From positions 1 through 37,882 of the forward strand of contig JAJXWQ010000035.1 in NCBI GenBank assembly GCA_021781555.1: a DNA stretch of 37,882 nucleotides, given 5' to 3'. Both the position numbers and the translations under genes were made by a program. Origin of the DNA: a bacterium (GTDB lineage: Bacteria; Cyanobacteriota; Sericytochromatia; S15B-MN24; VGJW01). Of this stretch, positions 7,940 through 37,882 are shown piece after piece. The notes below the pieces were generated by a model, which saw nothing but the letters and a program-made list of their open reading frames with translations, ran no database searches and was not told where the DNA came from. The stretch's first letter is position 1. The number at the start of each line of letters is the position of its first letter.

Positions 7940-8132
7940 AGGGTGCTCCCGGTTTGAACGGATCGGGCCCGGGGAGTCAAACGGGGCCCGGTTGCGCAGC
8001 GCAGCGACCGCGCAGAGGGACCCGTTCACACGGTAGATCAAGCTCTTCCCCGGTAAGCATCCGGCCCGGGGAGTCAAACGGGGCCCGGTTGCGCAGCGCA
8101 GCGACCTCGCAGAGGGACCCGTTCACACGGTA
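7940..8132 (+). repeat. Family A elements, two copies
   Basis: The first copy (about 7949-8032) is complete and has the best inverted-repeat end in the window, GTTTGAACGGATC. The second (about 8059-8132) lacks the left end. Both end CCCGTTCACACGGTA rather than CAAACT, so they are closer to each other than to the other copies and probably arose by local duplication. The pair lies between the PBP4 gene and the histidine kinase gene. Confidence 0.85.
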
Positions 8133-8144
8133 AAAGGTATACCC

Positions 8145-11265: not shown

Positions 11266-13580
11266 GCGAACCCCCGCGTTCCTGGCTGGGCCGATTGCGA
11301 GATTTCTTCGGCCATGCGGCCATCGAGAAGGCGATTCCGGCCGATCCGGCCTCAGGCCGCAGCCTCCGCATCGGCATCGACGTGGGCGGAACATTCACCC
11401 ATGCCGTCGCGCTGGACGCTGCGACGCTGGCCCTGACGGGCCGGATCAAGGTGCCGACCACGCATTTTGCGTCCGAAGGGGTCGCCGCCGGCGTGCTCGA
11501 GGCCCTCTCGCTCTTGATCGCGGACACCGGAGCCCGGACCGACGAGATCGGCCTCATCGCTCACAGCACCACGCAGGCCACGAACGCCCTGCTCGAGGGT
11601 GACGTCGCGACGGTCGGCATCCTCGGAATGGGTCGGGGCCCGGGCTCCTGGCTGGCCAGCCGCGCCACGCGCATCGGGCAGCTCGAGCTGGCTCCCGGGC
11701 GCTACCTCGAAACCGTCCACCGGTTCCTGGATGTCGGATCCGGCATCGATGAGACGGCCGTCCTGGATGCGACAAGAACGCTCGAATCCCTCGGCGCCCG
11801 GGCCTTCGTCGTCAGCGCGGCCTTCGGCGTCGACGATCCCGAGGCCGAGGCCCGGGCGGTCGATCGGCTGCGCGCGGACGGTCGGCTCGCCTGCGCGGGC
11901 CACGAGATCTCGCAGCTCTACGGCCTGCGGGCCCGGACTCGGACGGCGGCAATCAACGCCTGCATGCTCCCGCGGATGGTCGAGACGGCCGAGATGACCG
12001 AGCGCGCGGTCCGTGCGGCCGGAATCATGGCGCCCTTGATGGTGATGCGCTCGGACGGCGGCGTGATGACCCTGGCCGAGATGCGCCGACGTCCCATCTT
12101 GACCATGCTCTCGGGTCCCGCTGCCGGCGTGGCGGCCGCGATGATGGCCGTACGGCTATCCGATGGCATCTTCCTGGAGATCGGTGGCACCAGCACCGAC
12201 ATCTCGGTGATTCGCAACGGCAAGGCCCAGGTCAAGGCCGCCGAACTCGGGGGCAACCGGCTGTACCTCCGGACGCTCGACGTCCGGACCGTCGGCGTCG
12301 CCGGCGGATCCATGGTCCGGATCGCCCGGCCAGGGAGGCCCGCCCGGAAAACGCGAGCGGTGCCGCTCGAGCCGGAGGGCCAGGCCGCAAGCGGCCTGAT
12401 TCCGGGCTCCAGGCCGATCGCCGTCGGGCCGCGCAGCGCCCACATCGCAGGCCTGGCATACGCCGCCTTCCCGAAAGCCGACCTGAAGATGGGCGAGGTC
12501 ACGACCCTGGCCCCGCGCCCCGGCGATCCCGCCGACTACCTGGCCCTGCGGACAGGTCGCGACGTCTCGCATACGCTCACGACCACCTGCGCGGCCAACT
12601 TCCTGGGCCTGGTGCCAGAAGGCGACTGCGCACGCGGGGATGCCGAGTCCGTGCGCCTGGCAACCGAGCGCGTGGCGCGCGCGGCCGGAATGGAGGCAGA
12701 GGAACTCGCCACGCGCATTCTCCACCTTGCCACGGATCCCCTCGAAGCCCGCGTCAAGAAGTTGATCTCCGACTACCGACTCGACCGGCGCCTGGTGACA
12801 CTCATGGGCGGAGGCGGCGGAGCGGCGGCGCTCGTTCCCTACCTGGCGCGGCGCATGGGACTGCGCTTTGCCCTGGCGGACAACGCCGACGTGATCTCGG
12901 CGATCGGCGTGGCGCTGGCCATGGTCAGGGAAACGATCGAGCGCAACCTCACCCGGCCCACCAACGACGACCTCTTGCGGCTGCGCCGGGAGGCCGAGGC
13001 TGCGGTCCTGGCCGTGGGAGCGGCGGCGGGCACGGTCGAGGTCCAGATCGAGATCGACTCCGCACGGAACATCGTGCGCGCGGTCGCGACCGGGGCCACC
13101 GAGCTCCGGACCCGCGAGATGACCGCCGCGGCCCCGTCGCCAGAAGAGCTCCGGGCGATCGCCGCGCACGCCCTGGACGAGTCCGTCGACGCCATCGATC
13201 TCATGGCCCGTACCGACGGTCTCGAGGTCTGGGGCACGCAGCTCAAGGAATCCCGCTGGCGCGGCCTGCTCAAGCGCGAACGGATGGCGCTGCGGGTCAT
13301 CGATCCAGACGGTGTGATCCGGCTGCAGACCAACCGCGGGGCCGTCCTCGCCAGTCCGGCGGGGGATCTTTCGTCGGCCCTGGCAGGCTTCCTCGAGGAG
13401 CACGCGCACTTCGGCGATGGCGGCAAGGAGATTCCGGACTGCTTCGTGTTGCAGGGGCGCAAGCTCCTGGACCTCTCGGGCCTGCTGGATGCTTCCCAGG
13501 TCGTCTCCCTCGCCATGGCCGAGATCGAGGGCGTGGCCTCGGACGAGCCGATCGTGGTCGTGGGAGCGCTCCGCCACTAG
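11262..13580 (+). CDS. hyuA: Hydantoinase/oxoprolinase HyuA family protein
   Basis: A 772-residue ATP-dependent amidohydrolase-type subunit. An N-terminal extension of about 35 residues precedes the Hydant_A_N domain with its ASKHA phosphate loop (IGIDVGGTFTHAVAL) and AHSTTQATNALLEG. The Hydantoinase_A domain has MRSDGGVMTLAEM, LSGPAAGVAAAM and EIGGTSTDISVIRNGK. A C-terminal part follows with GGGGGAAALVPYLARRMGL. In this family HyuA works with HyuB to open hydantoin or 5-oxoproline rings using ATP; no HyuB gene is nearby. Start and operon context come from the ATGA overlap with the permease. The gene is convergent with the methyltransferase gene, separated by family B repeats. Confidence 0.9.
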   Translation: MSEPPRSWLGRLRDFFGHAAIEKAIPADPASGRSLRIGIDVGGTFTHAVALDAATLALTGRIKVPTTHFASEGVAAGVLEALSLLIADTGARTDEIGLIAHSTTQATNALLEGDVATVGILGMGRGPGSWLASRATRIGQLELAPGRYLETVHRFLDVGSGIDETAVLDATRTLESLGARAFVVSAAFGVDDPEAEARAVDRLRADGRLACAGHEISQLYGLRARTRTAAINACMLPRMVETAEMTERAVRAAGIMAPLMVMRSDGGVMTLAEMRRRPILTMLSGPAAGVAAAMMAVRLSDGIFLEIGGTSTDISVIRNGKAQVKAAELGGNRLYLRTLDVRTVGVAGGSMVRIARPGRPARKTRAVPLEPEGQAASGLIPGSRPIAVGPRSAHIAGLAYAAFPKADLKMGEVTTLAPRPGDPADYLALRTGRDVSHTLTTTCAANFLGLVPEGDCARGDAESVRLATERVARAAGMEAEELATRILHLATDPLEARVKKLISDYRLDRRLVTLMGGGGGAAALVPYLARRMGLRFALADNADVISAIGVALAMVRETIERNLTRPTNDDLLRLRREAEAAVLAVGAAAGTVEVQIEIDSARNIVRAVATGATELRTREMTAAAPSPEELRAIAAHALDESVDAIDLMARTDGLEVWGTQLKESRWRGLLKRERMALRVIDPDGVIRLQTNRGAVLASPAGDLSSALAGFLEEHAHFGDGGKEIPDCFVLQGRKLLDLSGLLDASQVVSLAMAEIEGVASDEPIVVVGALRH

Positions 13581-13594
13581 GGGGATTCTCCCGC

Positions 13595-13847
13595 GCTGCG
13601 CGCGGGCTGTGACTCGAGGGAACCCGCCGGTTCCCTCGAACTCTCTCCGGCTGCGGGCAAGCTGCTGCGCCGCGGGGATCCCTCGGTGGCGAGATTTCCG
13701 CTCGGAGCCGGGAGGCCGCCTGAGCTGCGCGCGGGCTGTGACTCGAGGGAACCCGCCGGTTCCCTCGAACTCTCTCCGGCTGCGGGCAAGCTGCTGCGCC
13801 GCGGGGATCCCTCGGTGGCGAGATTTCCGCTCGGAGCCGGGAGGCCG
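13595..13847 (-). repeat. Family B hairpin repeat, two tandem copies
   Basis: A 124-bp unit is present twice (13595-13718 and 13724-13847), a period of 129 bp. Each has an 11-bp perfect hairpin, TCGAGGGAACC with GGTTCCCTCGA and loop CGCC (stems 13614-13639 and 13743-13768). It is followed by the 20-nt core CTGCGGGCAAGCTGCTGCGC. A further 7-bp hairpin, CCCGCGC/GCGCGGG, overlaps the left edge at 13590-13606. The repeats fill the gap between the convergent hyuA and methyltransferase genes and may act as a two-way terminator. A diverged third copy is at the right end of the window. Confidence 0.9.
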
Positions 13848-13855
13848 TCCGGAGG

Positions 13856-15805
13856 CTATCCGGCGGCGATCGCCTGCTGGGCCGCGGTGAACGGATCGTC
13901 GTTCGAGGCGTAGCGCAGGAACGCCCGGGACACGCCCAGGCGCTCGGAGTCCGAAAGGCCGTACAGGTCCTCGACGCGATCGTCGAGTTCGCGCACGGCC
14001 GCCAGCGTCGAACCGTCGTCCTGGATCCGGGTCGCCAGCGCCTCGAGATCGGCCAGGGTTCCGGAATCGGGCTCCGGGCAGGGCAACTGGTCGAGGAACG
14101 CGGGCAGGTAGTGGTAGTAGCCCCCGCCGATGCAGATCCCACGAAAGAGCACCGCATAGAGGACCGAGACGAGGCGACTGTTCAAGATGGCTGCAAACGC
14201 GGCCGTGTAGCCGCGAGGCGCGCCCTCTGGCGCCAGGGCGATCGGATAGACGTCCTTCGTGACGAAGCGTCCCTCGACGTCCGAGAATGCGGCCAGCCGG
14301 CGGGCATGCTGGCAGAAGATGATCTTGGGCGATCGGAACTGCCAGAGCCCGGGCAGCGGGTTCCCGCGGACCGCGAGTTCGCCCTGGGCGTAGCGGATGG
14401 TGTGGCCGTCCCAGCGTACCGAGAACGGGGCGATCTCTTTTTCCCGCGCCCAGCTCTTGCCGCCAAGGTAGGGCAAAACCTGGCTGTCACCCTCCGTGCC
14501 GAGGACGCCGCCGCCCGGAATCAGGGCCGCCGAAGCCAGGCGCCTTGCGGGTCCGATGCTTGCTTGGCCGGGCGGATGCACGTAGCGTTCGCGCAGGCCG
14601 ACTTCGTGGAAAGAGACCGTACTGCGAATGGCCAGGAGGTCCTTGAGCCGAGGCAGTTCGCTGTCCAGGAGCCTGGCGAGCAGGCCACCGACGTCGGGAT
14701 CATCGGGAATGAACCAGGTGCAGGCCGCTCCCGACGAGGCCAGGGATGCCAGCGGAAGCTCCTGCCTGCGCAAAGACGGGCCGATCGCGGTGCAGGCTCG
14801 GGCAAGATCGGCTCCGGGCCGTGCCGGACGCTCCGCCCCCCCGGCACCGGACGCGCTCGCCCCGGCCTCGCGGCGGGCGTGGAGCGTGATCGGGTACACC
14901 CCCACGCGCACAAAGACCTCCCTCTCGGAGAGATCCCGCAGCGTGACCGGGGGACAGAGCTCCAGCATGCGCTGACGAAGTCCGCGTGCGTACCGGTTCA
15001 CCAGAAACTTGTTCGGCACGATCATACCCAGATCGCCGCCGGGCGTGAGCCACTCCAGCGCCAGTTCGAGAAAGCAGACGTAGAGATCGAACGCCCCGGC
15101 CAGGCGGGCGCCGAAGCGCTGGCGCCAGCGCTTCTTCTCGTCCTCTCCCGCGCGCTTGGCCTCGAGGTAGGGCGGGTTGCCGACAATCCAGCGGAAGTCC
15201 CCGCCGGGAGCAGGTATGGCGAGAGCATCCGCCGTGAGGACCTGCGGGGCCGGAAGTTCGCCGACCAGATCGAGGCGATCGTGGTCGGCCAGGTGGGCCG
15301 CGACGACCAGGGCGATCCGCAGGCGCGCCAGCGCGGCGGTCGGCGGGTCGATCTCGATGCCGACGACCTCGACAAGGGTCCGCCGGGCTGCGCTGGCAAC
15401 CGTGGGGGAAGGCATCCCACGCCCAGCCCGGCCGAGGATGCGACGGGCCGCTCGGGCCAGGAAGGCCCCCGTGCCGCAGGCCGGATCGAGGATCCGGCCT
15501 GGCTCCAGGCCGTCGAACCCGACGTCATCCAGGATCTCGTCGATGACCTCAGCGGGCGAGAATACCTGTCCCAGCGCCCGCCGGTCGGCCTCCGGCGCCT
15601 GCTCCCAGAGTGCGTCGCAGGCCGCCTCGAACCGAGCCAGCCCCCGGGTCCAGGAAGCTCGTGGCAGCGGCGCCTCGCCCGGCGCCGCCGCGGGGCGGTG
15701 CCCGCAGCGGCCGACATAGGCGAGCAGCGCCTCGCGATAGCCAGGAAAGGCGTCGACCAGGGCCGCGATCGCCTCGTCGGCCAGCTGCCAGACCGGCACT
15801 GGCAC
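13856..15805 (-). CDS. N6-adenine DNA methyltransferase, Eco57I/TaqI class
   Basis: A 649-residue putative DNA methyltransferase. The catalytic half has motif X (ALGQVFSP, residues 78-85), motif I (DPACGTGAF, 107-115), motif II (VGIEID) and motif IV NPPY (210-213), the hallmark of N6-adenine (gamma-class) enzymes. The C-terminal half (about 370-640) resembles the TaqI-like target-recognition domain: VTKDVYPIAL, AAILNSRLVSVLYAV, YYHYLPAFLDQLPCP. I see no PD-(D/E)xK nuclease motif and no restriction gene next to it, so it may be an orphan or a nuclease-free relative of type IIG enzymes. The GTG start at 15805 uses the last base of the preceding stop codon (TAGTG), so translation is coupled. Longer upstream reading would overlap that gene by 75 nt and is unlikely. 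Confidence 0.88.
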   Translation of the reverse strand: MPVPVWQLADEAIAALVDAFPGYREALLAYVGRCGHRPAAAPGEAPLPRASWTRGLARFEAACDALWEQAPEADRRALGQVFSPAEVIDEILDDVGFDGLEPGRILDPACGTGAFLARAARRILGRAGRGMPSPTVASAARRTLVEVVGIEIDPPTAALARLRIALVVAAHLADHDRLDLVGELPAPQVLTADALAIPAPGGDFRWIVGNPPYLEAKRAGEDEKKRWRQRFGARLAGAFDLYVCFLELALEWLTPGGDLGMIVPNKFLVNRYARGLRQRMLELCPPVTLRDLSEREVFVRVGVYPITLHARREAGASASGAGGAERPARPGADLARACTAIGPSLRRQELPLASLASSGAACTWFIPDDPDVGGLLARLLDSELPRLKDLLAIRSTVSFHEVGLRERYVHPPGQASIGPARRLASAALIPGGGVLGTEGDSQVLPYLGGKSWAREKEIAPFSVRWDGHTIRYAQGELAVRGNPLPGLWQFRSPKIIFCQHARRLAAFSDVEGRFVTKDVYPIALAPEGAPRGYTAAFAAILNSRLVSVLYAVLFRGICIGGGYYHYLPAFLDQLPCPEPDSGTLADLEALATRIQDDGSTLAAVRELDDRVEDLYGLSDSERLGVSRAFLRYASNDDPFTAAQQAIAAG

Positions 15806-19534: not shown

Positions 19535-19640
19535 TAGAGTGCTCCCGGTTTGAATGGATCGAGCCCGATGAGTCAAACGGGGCCCGGTTGCGCAGCGAAG
19601 CGACCGCGCAGAGGGCCCCGTTCAAACTGAAAAAGGCCTA
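19535..19640 (+). repeat. Family A element, complete copy with linkers
   Basis: The 82-bp element occupies 19547-19628 and differs from the copies at 36-222 by about one base (GGGCCCCG for GGGACCCG). Linker sequence GAGTGCTCCC precedes it and AAAAAGGCCTAA follows it. The trailing CTA is the stop codon of the minus-strand gene that ends at 19638. Confidence 0.9.
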
Positions 19641-20666
19641 AAGGGCAGACTCGGTCCGGTCCATTTTCGGCCGTCGTGCCGCTTCCGACGGCGCGATCTC
19701 GTCCAGGTTGGGGAGCCGTACGACGAGCTCGCCGTGCTGCTTGAGGGTGCTCTCGCCGGCCGCCAGTTGCTTGCGGTAGCCCTGGAGTGAAAAGTCCAGG
19801 ACCTGCGCGTCCGCCGAGCGCGGCACGACCTGGAAGACGGCATCGCGGAGAAACATCTTGCCCACGAGCAGGGTATGCCCGATGCAAAACAGAAACGCCG
19901 GCGCGTCCTTTTCGACCAACGGCGGCCCGGCGATCGGCTCCGGCCAGTCATAGGACAGGAGCAGGGCACCGCTCGAAACGTCGACGGCCGCAGGCCGACC
20001 CCTGGCCCGGGGAGCGGGGAAGATCTGCTCGGGGTCGATCGCCAGTGCGTTTCCACGAGCGGACATCGGCGCATCCGGCGGAACCCGGAGCACCCGTTCG
20101 AGATCCGTCCGCAACAGGGACAGCAGGGGGCCGATGCCCATCCCTCCCGCCTCGACCCGTGCCACCGAGAGCTGGATCCGGCCCTCGTCGTTCAGCGTCA
20201 CCGGGCCAGCCAGCACGATCGGAACCCGCAGCGGCCCCCACGGGAGCTCGCCCTCCAGGCGCATTCCACGGTCGTCCAGGGCCACCTTGGGATCGCCCAG
20301 GGCCAGCGGTGCGGCCGCGAACAGGTAGCGGGACAGGAGAGCCTCGATCGCCGAGGCCTCCAGCCGCACGGTGCCCTTGAGGATGTGGAAGACGTACTGA
20401 TCCGTGCGCTCGGGGATGAGCGGCAGCTCCGGATCGTTCATCTGGATCTCGGCCACCAGATCGTCGAGTCCCAGGACGACGTCGCCCTCGAAGAAGAGGC
20501 GCACGTTGTGGGCCCAGATGCGCATGCGGCCCTCGGCCAGCGTTGCCATCTGCCGCTCGGCAGGCGTCAGGGCCATACCCGTGATCAGGGTCTTGCCGGC
20601 GGCCTCCACGAACGCCGAGAACACGGCCATGTTGTGGGCCAGGGTTCCGGTTTTGCGACCTTTCAT
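19638..20666 (-). CDS. DUF2993-like (LmeA) lipid-binding protein
   Basis: A 342-residue protein. The segment of about residues 100-205 (AIEALLSRYL, PKVALDDRGMRLEGELPWGPLRVPIVLAGPVTLNDEGRIQLSVARVEAGGMG) has the alternating-strand pattern of DUF2993, a phospholipid-binding domain common in cyanobacteria and actinobacteria. A second strand-rich part (about 235-320) may be a repeat of the fold. There is no signal peptide. The ATG at 20666 has a -10 element 6 nt upstream and no Shine-Dalgarno sequence; reading further upstream would cross that element. The C-terminal 20 residues are polar, and the stop lies in the family A repeat linker, so the natural end may have been altered by repeat insertion. 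Confidence 0.6.
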   Translation of the reverse strand: MKGRKTGTLAHNMAVFSAFVEAAGKTLITGMALTPAERQMATLAEGRMRIWAHNVRLFFEGDVVLGLDDLVAEIQMNDPELPLIPERTDQYVFHILKGTVRLEASAIEALLSRYLFAAAPLALGDPKVALDDRGMRLEGELPWGPLRVPIVLAGPVTLNDEGRIQLSVARVEAGGMGIGPLLSLLRTDLERVLRVPPDAPMSARGNALAIDPEQIFPAPRARGRPAAVDVSSGALLLSYDWPEPIAGPPLVEKDAPAFLFCIGHTLLVGKMFLRDAVFQVVPRSADAQVLDFSLQGYRKQLAAGESTLKQHGELVVRLPNLDEIAPSEAARRPKMDRTESAL

Positions 20667-23578: not shown

Positions 23579-23602
23579 TGGCGATCGGGCAGTATAGCTT
23601 GT

Positions 23603-23628
23603 GCAGCTTGAACGGGTCCCTCTGCGCG
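23603..23628 (-). repeat. Family A element, truncated copy
   Basis: Only the end survives, in reverse orientation: TTGAACGGGTCCCTCTGCGCG matches the right end and part of the core. It lies in the 100-bp gap between the M16-like gene and coaE. Confidence 0.6.
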
Positions 23629-23679
23629 CCCGCCCCCGCTCATGAAAACGGTTCCAGCGAAAGGATGGCCTGGCGCCCG

Positions 23680-27794: not shown

Positions 27795-27800
27795 TCGAGG

Positions 27801-28202
27801 TGGAGATGGCGAGAGTCGAACTCGCGTGCCAGAAGGGGGCCATGGAGGCCTCTACGAGCGTAGCCTCGGGTAATGTCTCGCGGCACGGCCCCCCTGGGCT
27901 CGGGCTTGGTGTCGCCAGTTGGTCGGTCTTAGCCTGGCTTGGCCAACGATCGGCCAGGAGCATCCAGCTTTGGTTGCCTACCTGCCGCGGCTGGCGCGCT
28001 GCAGAAGGCTTGGACTCCTATCTCGAAAGAGAGTTAGGCAGCCAGAACGGCTGCTTGACCCTTAACGCGAACAGGAGCCGCCGCAAGAACCATGTTGTTC
28101 TTCTTGGCGTTTTTTGTTTGCCACCTGATTTAACGGGGTCGGGTGACTCTCCCGGCTCGCACCCCCCACCACCTCACTCCCGGTCGAAACCGTTACATCC
28201 CC
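27801..28202 (-). ncRNA. ssrA: tmRNA (ribosome rescue)
   Basis: About 402 nt. The acceptor stem pairs 5' GGGGATG (28202-28196) with CATCTCC near the 3' end. The T-arm GCGAG-TTCGACT-CTCGC and the conserved CGGTTTCGACCGGG near the 5' end are present. CCA is not fully encoded (ACCT follows). The best tag frame starts at GCC within CAAAAAACGCC, near 28108. It reads AKKNNMVL, continues for 24 codons and ends QAAVLAA with UAA, and the stop lies beside the hairpin GCAGCC/GGCTGC. The AA ending is typical of tags and NNMV recalls the cyanobacterial NNIV. Starting at the nearby GCA would give a tag ending in Arg, which is less likely. Confidence 0.93.
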
Positions 28203-30779: not shown

Positions 30780-31260
30780 AACGTTTACGCCACGTTCAGG
30801 CCGGGGGAGCAGCGACCTGTGGATGGATATCAAGATGAAAACTGGATCGAGATATCGATCATGGAGGTAGGCGCACTTCGTCGCCCGAACGGGCCCCTCT
30901 GCGCGAGCGCTGTGCTGCGCAACCTGGCCCCTTTGGACTCTTCGGGCCCGATCCCTTCCAGGAGGCACCGTTCGGCTTTCGCGAGCCGCCACGCGTCGTA
31001 TCCCACACCGCCCGTGGGCAGGGCAACAGCGGGTGCAGGTACGAAGGCGAGATTCGCGGGGTCGATCTGATATTCGAAGAGGAAGACTGGATCGACATCC
31101 AGACTCTCGGATGGCCCGGACAAGGCGAGTTCATCGCGGCCACCATGTCCAAGGACGACGAGCGCCCGCGGAATTTCCGTGGCAGACCCTGCTGTTGCCG
31201 CCAGATCATGGAGATCTGGAGGACGCTGGCACCCCGGACTCGTTCAAACCGAGAACGAGC
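30780..31260 (+). other. Gene-poor stretch with a possible decayed, duplicated coding segment
   Basis: The 570 bp between the HU promoter and the sigma gene have no convincing intact gene. On the plus strand two peptide-like stretches resemble each other: VDGYQDENWIEISIMEVG (near 30820-30872) and GVDLIFEEEDWIDIQTLGW (near 31058-31114). They are in different frames and lie either side of a family A element. The second continues as PGQGEFIAATMSKDDERP. This could be a remnant of a duplicated acidic gene. A 97-codon minus-strand frame (30830-31123, TTG start, no Shine-Dalgarno) is an alternative. Hairpins CCAGATC/GATCTGG (31201-31219) and CTCGTTC/GAACGAG (31239-31259) lie after the sigma gene and might end its transcript, though no U run follows. 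Confidence 0.3.
30880..30955 (-). repeat. Family A element, diverged copy
   Basis: On the minus strand it reads GGATCGGGCCCGAAGAGTCC, then the GGTTGCGCAGC core and a GGGGCCCGTTCGGG end. It has more substitutions than most copies, so it is probably old. Confidence 0.7.
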
Positions 31261-32225: not shown

Positions 32226-32320
32226 CAAGGCCCGAGGCTCTTGCTGTGTGAACGGGTCCCTCTGCGCGGGCGCTACGCTGCGCAACCGGCCCCCGTCTGA
32301 CTCCCAAGGCCCGAGGCTCT
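32226..32320 (-). repeat. Family A element flanked by 16-bp direct repeats
   Basis: A reverse-oriented element occupies about 32246-32304. CAAGGCCCGAGGCTCT occurs immediately before it (32226-32241) and again at its other side (32305-32320), in direct orientation. The second repeat partly overlaps what would be the GGGCCC part of a full element. The direct repeats could be a target duplication or a recombination scar. It lies between the sigma gene and the ABC permease gene. Confidence 0.75.
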
Positions 32321-32336
32321 CCTCGCGGATAGTCTC

Positions 32337-35001: not shown

Positions 35002-35027
35002 CCAGGATACCGTTCCGGTCGGGCGCC

Positions 35028-35152
35028 CGGTTGCGCAGCGCAGCGACCGCGCAGAGGGACCCGTTCAAACTCCCGGAGAGGATCGGGCCAAAGGAGTCAA
35101 ACGGGGCCCGGTTGCGCAGCGCAGCGACCGCGCAGAGGGACCCGTTCAAACT
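35028..35152 (+). repeat. Family A elements, two copies
   Basis: A left-truncated copy (about 35028-35071) and a nearly full one (about 35080-35152) sit side by side. Their shared 47-bp core-to-end segment appears identical, so the pair is recent. The second ends 9 nt before the stop codon of the minus-strand gene that ends at 35162. Confidence 0.88.
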
Positions 35153-35161
35153 GCAACAGAT

Positions 35162-35722
35162 CTAATTCAAAGCCGGATCCAGCGCCAGGCCGCAATCGGC
35201 GAAGTGCTCCGAAAGGATGCGCTGGAAACGTGCCGCGGTGGCGCTCATGGCCGCCGACAGCAGGGCGCTGCCCGCAGCCTCGATCCAGCGGCCGGGAAGG
35301 AGGCCCGCGCCGGGAAACTCGGCGGTCACGACGGCATGCGTGGAGCAGGCCAGCGTGCACCCGTCCTCGTGAGGCTCGAAGCAGGCCTGCCCATCGAATG
35401 CGACCGCCAGCTCGAGCCCCGGGGGCCCTTCGACCACCTGGGTGCGGCAGGTCTCCATCGTCGTGCGATCGGCCGTATCGACGAAGGCAACGTCGAGTTC
35501 GGGGCGGATGACGAGGCCCGGGATCGAGAACCGCCCGAAACTGATTCGGTAGCGCCCTTCCCCCAGGGGGGATACCTGGCCGCCCGGGACCAGTGCGGAG
35601 AGCAGGTCGGTGTTCTGCGAGAAATGAGCCGCAACGACAGCAGGCGCGGCACCTACGACGAAGCTGCGACTCGTTGAGGCCTTGAAGAGCATCTGGTCCA
35701 TCACCTGTGCGTCAGTTGCCAT
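35162..35722 (-). CDS. DUF1997-like protein
   Basis: A 186-residue protein. FSQNTDLLSALVPGGQVSPLGEGRYRISFGRFSIPGLVIRPELDVAFVD and the later strands resemble DUF1997, a START-like family mostly of cyanobacteria and plastids, followed by a C-terminal helix (LIEAAGSALLSAAMSATAARFQRILSEHFAD-like). No signal peptide. It interrupts the peptide-transporter set, lying between the DppC-type and binding-protein genes. Start uncertain: ATG at 35722 or the ATG at 35701 (MDQMLFKAS), neither with a clear Shine-Dalgarno site. Function unknown. Confidence 0.6.
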   Translation of the reverse strand: MATDAQVMDQMLFKASTSRSFVVGAAPAVVAAHFSQNTDLLSALVPGGQVSPLGEGRYRISFGRFSIPGLVIRPELDVAFVDTADRTTMETCRTQVVEGPPGLELAVAFDGQACFEPHEDGCTLACSTHAVVTAEFPGAGLLPGRWIEAAGSALLSAAMSATAARFQRILSEHFADCGLALDPALN

Positions 35723-36901: not shown

Positions 36902-37726
36902 TTGCGAAGACTGTCGCTGCTGCTGATCGCCGCCCTGCTGCTGTCGGCCACCCCGGCCGTGGCCAGGGAGCCGCATCTCCGGCTGTCAGCCAGGGCTGCC
37001 ATCGTCGAGGACGGGCAGGGGAACATCCTTTTCGCCGAGAATCCCAACTTGCGGCTGCCCAATGCCAGCACGACGAAGGTGCTGACAGCCCTCGTGACCA
37101 TCGATAACGCCGCGCTGCAGGACGTCGTCACCATCAGTCCCTACGCGGCAAGCATGCCGCCCACCCGGCTCGGGGTACGCCCAGGCGAGACGTACACGGT
37201 GCTCGAGCTCCTCTACGCCATCCTGCTGGCGTCGGACAACGACGCGGCGGTGGCGCTCGCCGAGCACGTCGCGGGTTCGACCCGGCGCTTCGCCGATCTG
37301 ATGAACGCCAAGGCCCGGGCGCTGGGATGCGACAACACGCACTTCGTCACGCCGAACGGCCTGCCGGCGAAGGGTCACTTCACCACGGTCCACGATCTCG
37401 CCCTCATCATGCGGGCGGCCGCTCAAAATCCGGTCTTCGTGGCCATCGCCCAGACCCGGAGCGTCGACCTGGTGTGGCCGAATCACCACCGCCCACACCA
37501 TGTCACGAGCCTCAACCGGCTGCTGGCCCGGTATCCCACCCCGCTCCTGGGCAAGACGGGCTTCACCTACGCCGCCGGCCGCTGCTACGTCGCCGAGGCG
37601 GAAGGCACGGGGCTCACGGTGGCCATGCTTGGCAGCCGCGACCTGTGGGGCGACGCCCGGCGCCTGATCGACTTCGGCATGAAGGCATCCCGAGCGACCA
37701 CCCTGGCCCGCAGCGCCCTCTGGTAG
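36902..37726 (+). CDS. D-Ala-D-Ala carboxypeptidase, S11 (DacA/PBP5) type
   Basis: A 274-residue secreted DD-peptidase that removes the terminal D-Ala from peptidoglycan stem peptides. A signal peptide (residues 1-21, ending TPAVA) precedes the catalytic domain. The motifs are SxxK as S56-T-T-K59 in ASTTKVLTALV, SDN in LLASDNDAAVALAEH, and KTG in LLGKTGFTYAAGRC. The protein stops soon after the domain (SALW), without the usual C-terminal beta domain and amphipathic anchor of PBP5, so it resembles the shorter DacF/soluble forms. TTG at 36902 was chosen because GGAGG lies 8 nt upstream and it gives a standard signal peptide. It is divergent from the DppC-type gene. Confidence 0.93.
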   Translation: MRRLSLLLIAALLLSATPAVAREPHLRLSARAAIVEDGQGNILFAENPNLRLPNASTTKVLTALVTIDNAALQDVVTISPYAASMPPTRLGVRPGETYTVLELLYAILLASDNDAAVALAEHVAGSTRRFADLMNAKARALGCDNTHFVTPNGLPAKGHFTTVHDLALIMRAAAQNPVFVAIAQTRSVDLVWPNHHRPHHVTSLNRLLARYPTPLLGKTGFTYAAGRCYVAEAEGTGLTVAMLGSRDLWGDARRLIDFGMKASRATTLARSALW

Positions 37727-37762
37727 CTCGCCGCTGCCGGCGCCCGTCCATCTTCACCCCCC

Positions 37763-37858
37763 CGCCACCGCGAAAGCCGCGCCGCGCAGCAGCTTGCCCG
37801 CAGCAGGGCGAGTTTGAGAGGGGCTGCGGCCCCTCTCAAGTCACCGCCCGAGCACAGC
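37763..37858 (-). repeat. Family B hairpin repeat, third copy
   Basis: Read on the minus strand, GTGAC is followed by an 11-bp perfect hairpin TTGAGAGGGGC/GCCCCTCTCAA with loop CGCA (37814-37839), then ACTC. After about ten bases comes the core CTGCGGGCAAGCTGCTGCGC, then GC-rich sequence ending GCGGTGGCG. The order and flanks match the copies at 13595-13847 although the stem sequence differs. It starts 37 bp after the carboxypeptidase stop and could end that transcript. The last 24 bases of the window show nothing I can name. Confidence 0.85.
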
Positions 37859-37882
37859 GAGGGAGAACCAAAACCTCAAGCG

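Follow-up and report, generated by a model that had tools for sequence, protein, structure and literature searches.

The window analysed here, positions 1-37,882 of contig JAJXWQ010000035.1 (GCA_021781555.1), carries copies of a repeat, family B, whose hairpin stem changes in sequence from copy to copy and stays paired, and the question raised by the copy at 37763-37858 is what kind of element would keep such a fold. Read on the minus strand, this copy runs GTGAC, TTGAGAGGGGC, CGCA, GCCCCTCTCAA, ACTC and then the core CTGCGGGCAAGCTGCTGCGC. As the preliminary description had stated, its stem is perfectly paired, with five of the 11 pairs differing from the copies near 13.6 kb and all five of these differences compensated, while the 20-nt core and the GTGAC and ACTC flanks are unchanged.

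Anatomy and subfamilies

The repeat itself is real, but the limits 37763-37858 proved too narrow: they enclose the middle of a longer unit with a consensus of about 147-170 nt, which in this case occupies about 37727-37875 between two convergent stop codons (Table 1), the outer hairpins and true ends having been overlooked at first reading. The covariance model R1 matches this copy at 37759-37864. Likewise, the copies described at 13595-13847 are present on the plus strand, but physically form one element with a 129-bp tandem duplicate (13590-13847).

Three subfamilies, B1, B2 and B3, were distinguished from consensus sequences. The order in B1 is a four-base word, about 18 nt, hairpin 1, GCAGTGAC, hairpin 2, a linker, the core and a 3' part ending in GGCTGGCGGCGCTAG. 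In B2 and B3, the left half consists of CTCA, a start resembling (C/T)AAGAAACTC, hairpin 1 (CCGGCTGCGCCGG or CCCCTTCGGGG), GCAGTGAC and hairpin 2, and the right half of a linker, the core and a 3' part ending in GTCGGCGCAGACGGTGGGGGACTCA. Hairpin 1 is imperfect in the window copy at 37727-37875 and perfect at the equivalent place in other copies (e.g., CCCGTGCTTCGCACGGG, CCGGCTGCGCCGG, CCCCTTCGGGG). GTGAC or close variants precede hairpin 2 in nearly all copies, the core is the best-conserved stretch across the subfamilies, and stem type and linker travel together.

The ends of the element are sharp and asymmetric; beyond them the consensus drops to noise, and the flanks are unconserved. Each unit sits 3' of a four-base target word and carries a similar word at its own right end, the words being stop-like (CTAG, CTGA or TTGA) in B1 and CTCA in B2 and B3, where the exact CTCA is found as the left word in 33/47 copies and as the right word in 28/32. 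Subterminal hairpins are present, the right-end one from consensus folding only. Terminal inverted repeats are absent, the end consensus sequences of B1, B2 and B3 not being complementary, and family B fails the test for a classical MITE of the DDE transposase type on this ground.

Table 1. Repeat features located in the window (positions in nucleotides of the window)
Feature	Position	Strand	Basis
Family B array: one B1 element with a 129-bp partial tandem duplicate	13581..13855	+	sequence, gene calls
Stop codon TAG, directly followed by the array	13578-13580		
Stop codon of the minus-strand gene, at which the array ends	13856-13858	-	
Hairpin 2, copy 1: TCGAGGGAACC cgcc GGTTCCCTCGA	13614..13639	+	sequence
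Core, copy 1	13651..13670	+	pattern search
Hairpin 2, copy 2: TCGAGGGAACC / CGCC / GGTTCCCTCGA	13743..13768	+	sequence
Core, copy 2	13780..13799	+	pattern search
Family B whole unit, B1 backbone, stem type TTGAGAGGGGC	37727..37875	-	consensus ends and gene calls; limits inferred to within a few bases
Flanking stop codon TAG	37724-37726	+	
Flanking stop codon TGA	37876-37878	-	
Hairpin 1 region, CCCTCGCTGTGCTCGGG, imperfect	37847..37863	-	sequence
Hairpin 2	37814..37839	-	sequence and covariation
Hairpin 2, arm TTGAGAGGGGC	37829-37839	-	
Hairpin 2, loop CGCA	37825-37828	-	
Hairpin 2, arm GCCCCTCTCAA	37814-37824	-	
Conserved 20-nt core CTGCGGGCAAGCTGCTGCGC	37784..37803	-	pattern search
Family A copies (1)	25-235, 1019-1124, 7940-8142, 19536-19641		
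Family A copies (2)	23593-23633, 30887-30964, 32238-32322, 35022-35165		

Copy number and distribution

The window holds the core three times, where shuffled sequence averages 0.02, and with up to three mismatches the core is found at 49 places in the whole source genome (3.82 Mb, 181 contigs), the reversed control giving 0; a few of the separately counted places are one physical copy split over contig ends, as where C39 ends and C97 starts. A loose regular expression for copies also caught coding matches, and those aligning full-length to the sister genome, a second species of the same genus, were disregarded. A covariance model, which the preliminary description had proposed to build from the three window copies, was built from 29 copies and returned 54 matches in the source genome; in the sister genome it returned at least 150 (pattern count of the core, 225); family B is thus a large family, with about 50 copies in the source genome. 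Its spread within the genus is read from two genomes, the sister being the only other genome of the genus compared. The B2/B3 right-end pattern is found at 130 places in the sister genome versus 2 in the source genome, which points to a lineage-specific burst in the former.

Sixteen other genomes of the class, and the more distant relatives included in the search, gave no family B match under the covariance model. Matches to the core in other genera occur singly and score weakly with the model, which is expected of loci preselected by the core, and the viral contigs searched gave one match. No account of repeats turned up in a literature search on this genus or the class presumed for it.

Covariation of the hairpin 2 stem

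The pairing of hairpin 2 was assessed on 36 distinct B1-type rows of fixed geometry, one degenerate copy being excluded, against 500 shuffles. Paired stem cells amounted to 97.2% versus 86.8% in the shuffles, the covariation score was 0.358 versus 0.164, and doubly changed cells, which count sequences and not events, numbered 47 versus 12.8; none of the 500 shuffles reached the observed value of any of the three, and shifting the partner column by 1-3 positions destroyed all covariation measures. Five pairs show any double change, a number not above that in the shuffles. In the statistical check of covariation that the preliminary description had called for, the stem exceeds the shuffle controls on score, paired cells and doubly changed cells.

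When the stems are arranged as a minimum spanning network, 7 double changes connect six fully paired types, the fully paired types being multi-copy or joined through double changes, and the 11 one-sided changes fall nearly all within individual copies. B3 retains an A-C mismatch in about 37 copies. The preliminary description had held that stems breaking freely in other copies would speak against it; some copies are indeed broken on one side, so that this objection holds in part; the paired substitutions are real. One-sided breaks in single copies, together with the ladder of double changes, suggest a filter acting when copies spread, rather than constant selection on resting copies, and the matched changes probably arise because only folding copies can spread.

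Placement relative to genes and stop codons

Genes were called with a simple codon-model caller (840 genes, coding density 0.84), which replaced an ORF-only stop-codon test because of the high false-positive rate of the latter. Of 158 copies, only 2 extend over 50 nt into a called gene, and a coding remnant was rejected on that account. B1 lies downstream of a co-oriented gene in 29/38 cases in the source genome and in 43/48 in the sister genome, so that the position at gene 3' ends, first claimed for all copies, is borne out for B1, both window instances included. Where both neighbours were called, B1 occupies divergent gaps in 0/31 cases in the source genome (G000) and in 3/27 in the sister genome (G001); B2 and B3 do occur in such gaps and have no orientation preference relative to genes.

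The distance from the stop codon to hairpin 2 of B1 has its mode at 40-42 nt (18/63; 41/63 at about 30-46 nt), which places the left end of B1 at the stop codon. TAG stands at 17 of 30 B1 left ends versus 288 of 776 called stops, a small excess that carries no weight. CTCA gives the stop TGA when read from the other strand, and in 8 of 22 cases the terminal TCA of B2/B3 is the stop codon of a convergent gene. Both window instances span the interval from stop codon to stop codon of convergent genes.

Evidence for mobility

The source and sister genomes are syntenic, the surroundings of the compared loci being roughly 80-90% identical in DNA. Locus L333 of the sister genome holds a tandem B3 pair between GGAACCGCTCA and TTTCGTTCG, while L187 of the source genome is empty and reads GGATCCGCTCA-TCTCGTTCG; L144 holds a B3 element, its counterpart L290 being empty and reading GATAGCTGA-CAAGCTTCG; and L256 versus L205 is an additional filled/empty pair. 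At L259, two B2 units are nested in a B1 copy on the opposite strand, and deleting 310 nt rebuilds the B1 sequence CTCTCCGGCTGAGGGCAAGCCGC. Empty sites and the exact restoration of the target at the nested insertion show that family B moves. Empty sites carry one four-base word and filled sites two, and these words could also be a target duplication. Full tandem units are joined head to tail via the four-base word, and some arrays, the window one included, are partial duplicates.

A further repeat of the same genomes, family A (about 105 nt, at least 10 copies in the window, with a CTAG-like word at each end), has empty sites in the sister genome at L211/L142, L205/L256 and L184/L225 and so resembles another mobile family of this type. 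The window also contains a tmRNA gene (RF00023) at 27798-28202 on the minus strand and an 18-bp tandem repeat (GACAGGCCCTTCAAGGCC-like) at 481-548, which is possibly coding.

Proposed mechanism and candidate enzymes

With a probability of about 0.7, we read family B as a non-autonomous mobile DNA element moved as single-stranded DNA in the manner of IS200/IS605 or REP elements, the single-stranded mode being what we infer from its anatomy. Of the two readings first offered for selection on a folded nucleic acid, a structured RNA or a DNA hairpin recognised by a protein, the DNA one is favoured by the precision of the insertions, the empty sites, the tandem and nested copies and the fixed terminal words. 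Three features match Y1 single-strand DNA transposition: ends that are asymmetric and bear hairpins, insertion on the 3' side of a short word, and head-to-tail arrays. TnpAREP is known to cleave at CT or CA beside its hairpins, and in at least one system cutting suffers when a perfect stem carries a mismatch (PMC8266576). A putative HUH transposase of the one-tyrosine (Y1) type, supplied in trans, would excise and insert the element as folded single-stranded DNA; paired changes in hairpin 2 would persist, since copies that do not fold would not be propagated. One-sided breaks fit such an element, because spreading copies must fold and resting copies need not, and insertion at a stop codon would be harmless, as the junction word supplies the stop. 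Several points count against the mobile-element reading: no autonomous copy with family B ends was found, B3 keeps its A-C mismatch in about 37 copies, and the hairpin 2-core module, internal and kept across the subfamilies, is more than a transposase reading just the ends would require.

A single Y1_Tnp gene occurs in each genome at the same, syntenic place (L045:1456-1881, coding for 142 aa, and L279:1456-1881), with 91% protein identity, dN 0.046, dS 0.279 and dN/dS about 0.16; judged from these sequences, the gene is under purifying selection. It carries the Y...Q motif of the IS200 class and has no flanking B copies. QLH/QVH stands in place of HUH, and with Gln for the first His, the protein may be inactive as a nuclease; a survey of the superfamily set aside proteins without such motifs as probably non-functional (PMC6006769). 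Y1_Tnp is a possible domesticated enzyme. No autonomous insertion sequence with family B ends was found near PF01797 matches in either genome. Two other candidates were rejected: an IS91-like Y2 transposase (L282, G000:C75:901-1407, one copy), whose ends are unrelated to B and which was not found in the sister genome, and a TnpB/Cas12f-like gene (L284, G000:C87:77481-77669), single in the source genome and likewise not found in the sister genome.

A narrower version, which we hold as tentative and rather doubtful, makes family B a single-strand DNA family that targets stop codons, CTAG, CTGA and CTCA containing a stop that the right end restores, with subfamilies that would have switched the word and kept the hairpin-core module, and with the domesticated, altered-HUH Y1 protein as the mover.

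Alternative explanations

Rather unlikely is that family B is mobile and that hairpin 2 and the core act in addition as RNA in 3' untranslated regions, as an mRNA stabiliser or a protein-binding site, selection on the RNA keeping the stem. The sense orientation of B1 right after stop codons and the conservation of the core across subfamilies would suit such a role, and REPs elsewhere are regarded as transcribed and as functioning at the RNA level (PMC3733652). However, B2 and B3 have the same module without preferred gene orientation, stems are broken in individual copies, and when whole elements were folded with RNAalifold, hairpin 2 was the only part whose structure agreed between subfamilies. 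Nor did family B match Rfam, whether at the gathering threshold or at permissive ones, in agreement with the earlier remark that the repeat was not recognised as any named family. A chance spread of intrinsic transcription terminators is very improbable as the origin of the repeats: their gene 3' end position and strong GC-rich hairpins would be in keeping with it, but no T-run follows the hairpins, a scan of family B found neither intrinsic terminators nor promoters, and sharp ends, empty sites and nested copies require transposition.

Perfect stems might also arise without selection, by template switching from arm to arm (quasi-palindrome correction) or by gene conversion among copies, which we consider unlikely. 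Orthologous B copies after the same genes differ in stem type between the genomes at L187/L222 and L189/L237, and both tandem copies agree within each genome at L189 and L237; this and the joint movement of stem type and linker speak for such a process, and the differing stem types at these two loci indicate that copies are additionally altered by gene conversion or replaced by repeated insertion. The persistence of the B3 mismatch and of several one-sided breaks argues the other way, and correction or conversion accounts for pairing but leaves the insertions unexplained.

Comparison with known systems

Non-autonomous elements derived from IS200/IS605 have asymmetric ends, subterminal hairpins and no inverted repeats, insert at a fixed word and form head-to-tail arrays. 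PATEs are named among them (PMC3119063, PMC7290912). Family B passes the anatomical tests for this type, lacking inverted repeats and possessing subterminal hairpins, and shares the asymmetric hairpin ends, word-directed insertion and arrays; it differs in that no parent insertion sequence with its ends was found near PF01797 matches, and in conserving a long internal hairpin and core.

REPs lie mostly between unidirectional or convergent genes, their termini often supplying a TAG stop (PMC3733652), and their movement is attributed to a Y1 protein acting in trans (PMC8266576). With the REP/BIME system and its TnpAREP (RAYT), family B has in common high copy number, extragenic palindromes and the stop-codon habit, and REP-type extragenic placement in unidirectional and convergent gaps is found. 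However, a REP unit measures 20-50 nt versus 150-165 nt with several hairpins in family B, and its tag, an unpaired GTAG or CGTC at the palindrome foot, is replaced by GTGAC before hairpin 2; class 2 TnpAREP/RAYT (Y...NP motif) was not found in either genome, the sister genome being only 86% complete. Family B thus fails the REP tests on tag, unit length and partnered RAYT. Family A resembles family B in its CTAG-like word at both ends and its empty sites, and adjoins B copies, but differs in sequence and has no common core.

Family B offers a natural hairpin series in which the sequence changes stepwise and the fold is retained, an element filled or empty between two close genomes, and a clear example of how insertion at stop codons can leave the genes on both sides intact. 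It is a relative of known repeat families and not a new kind of RNA. We hold with fair confidence that it works like REP and IS200/IS605 elements, and file it as a member of neither; it is a longer unit without the GTAG tag that joins REP-like and IS200-like repeats and comes from a poorly known genus.
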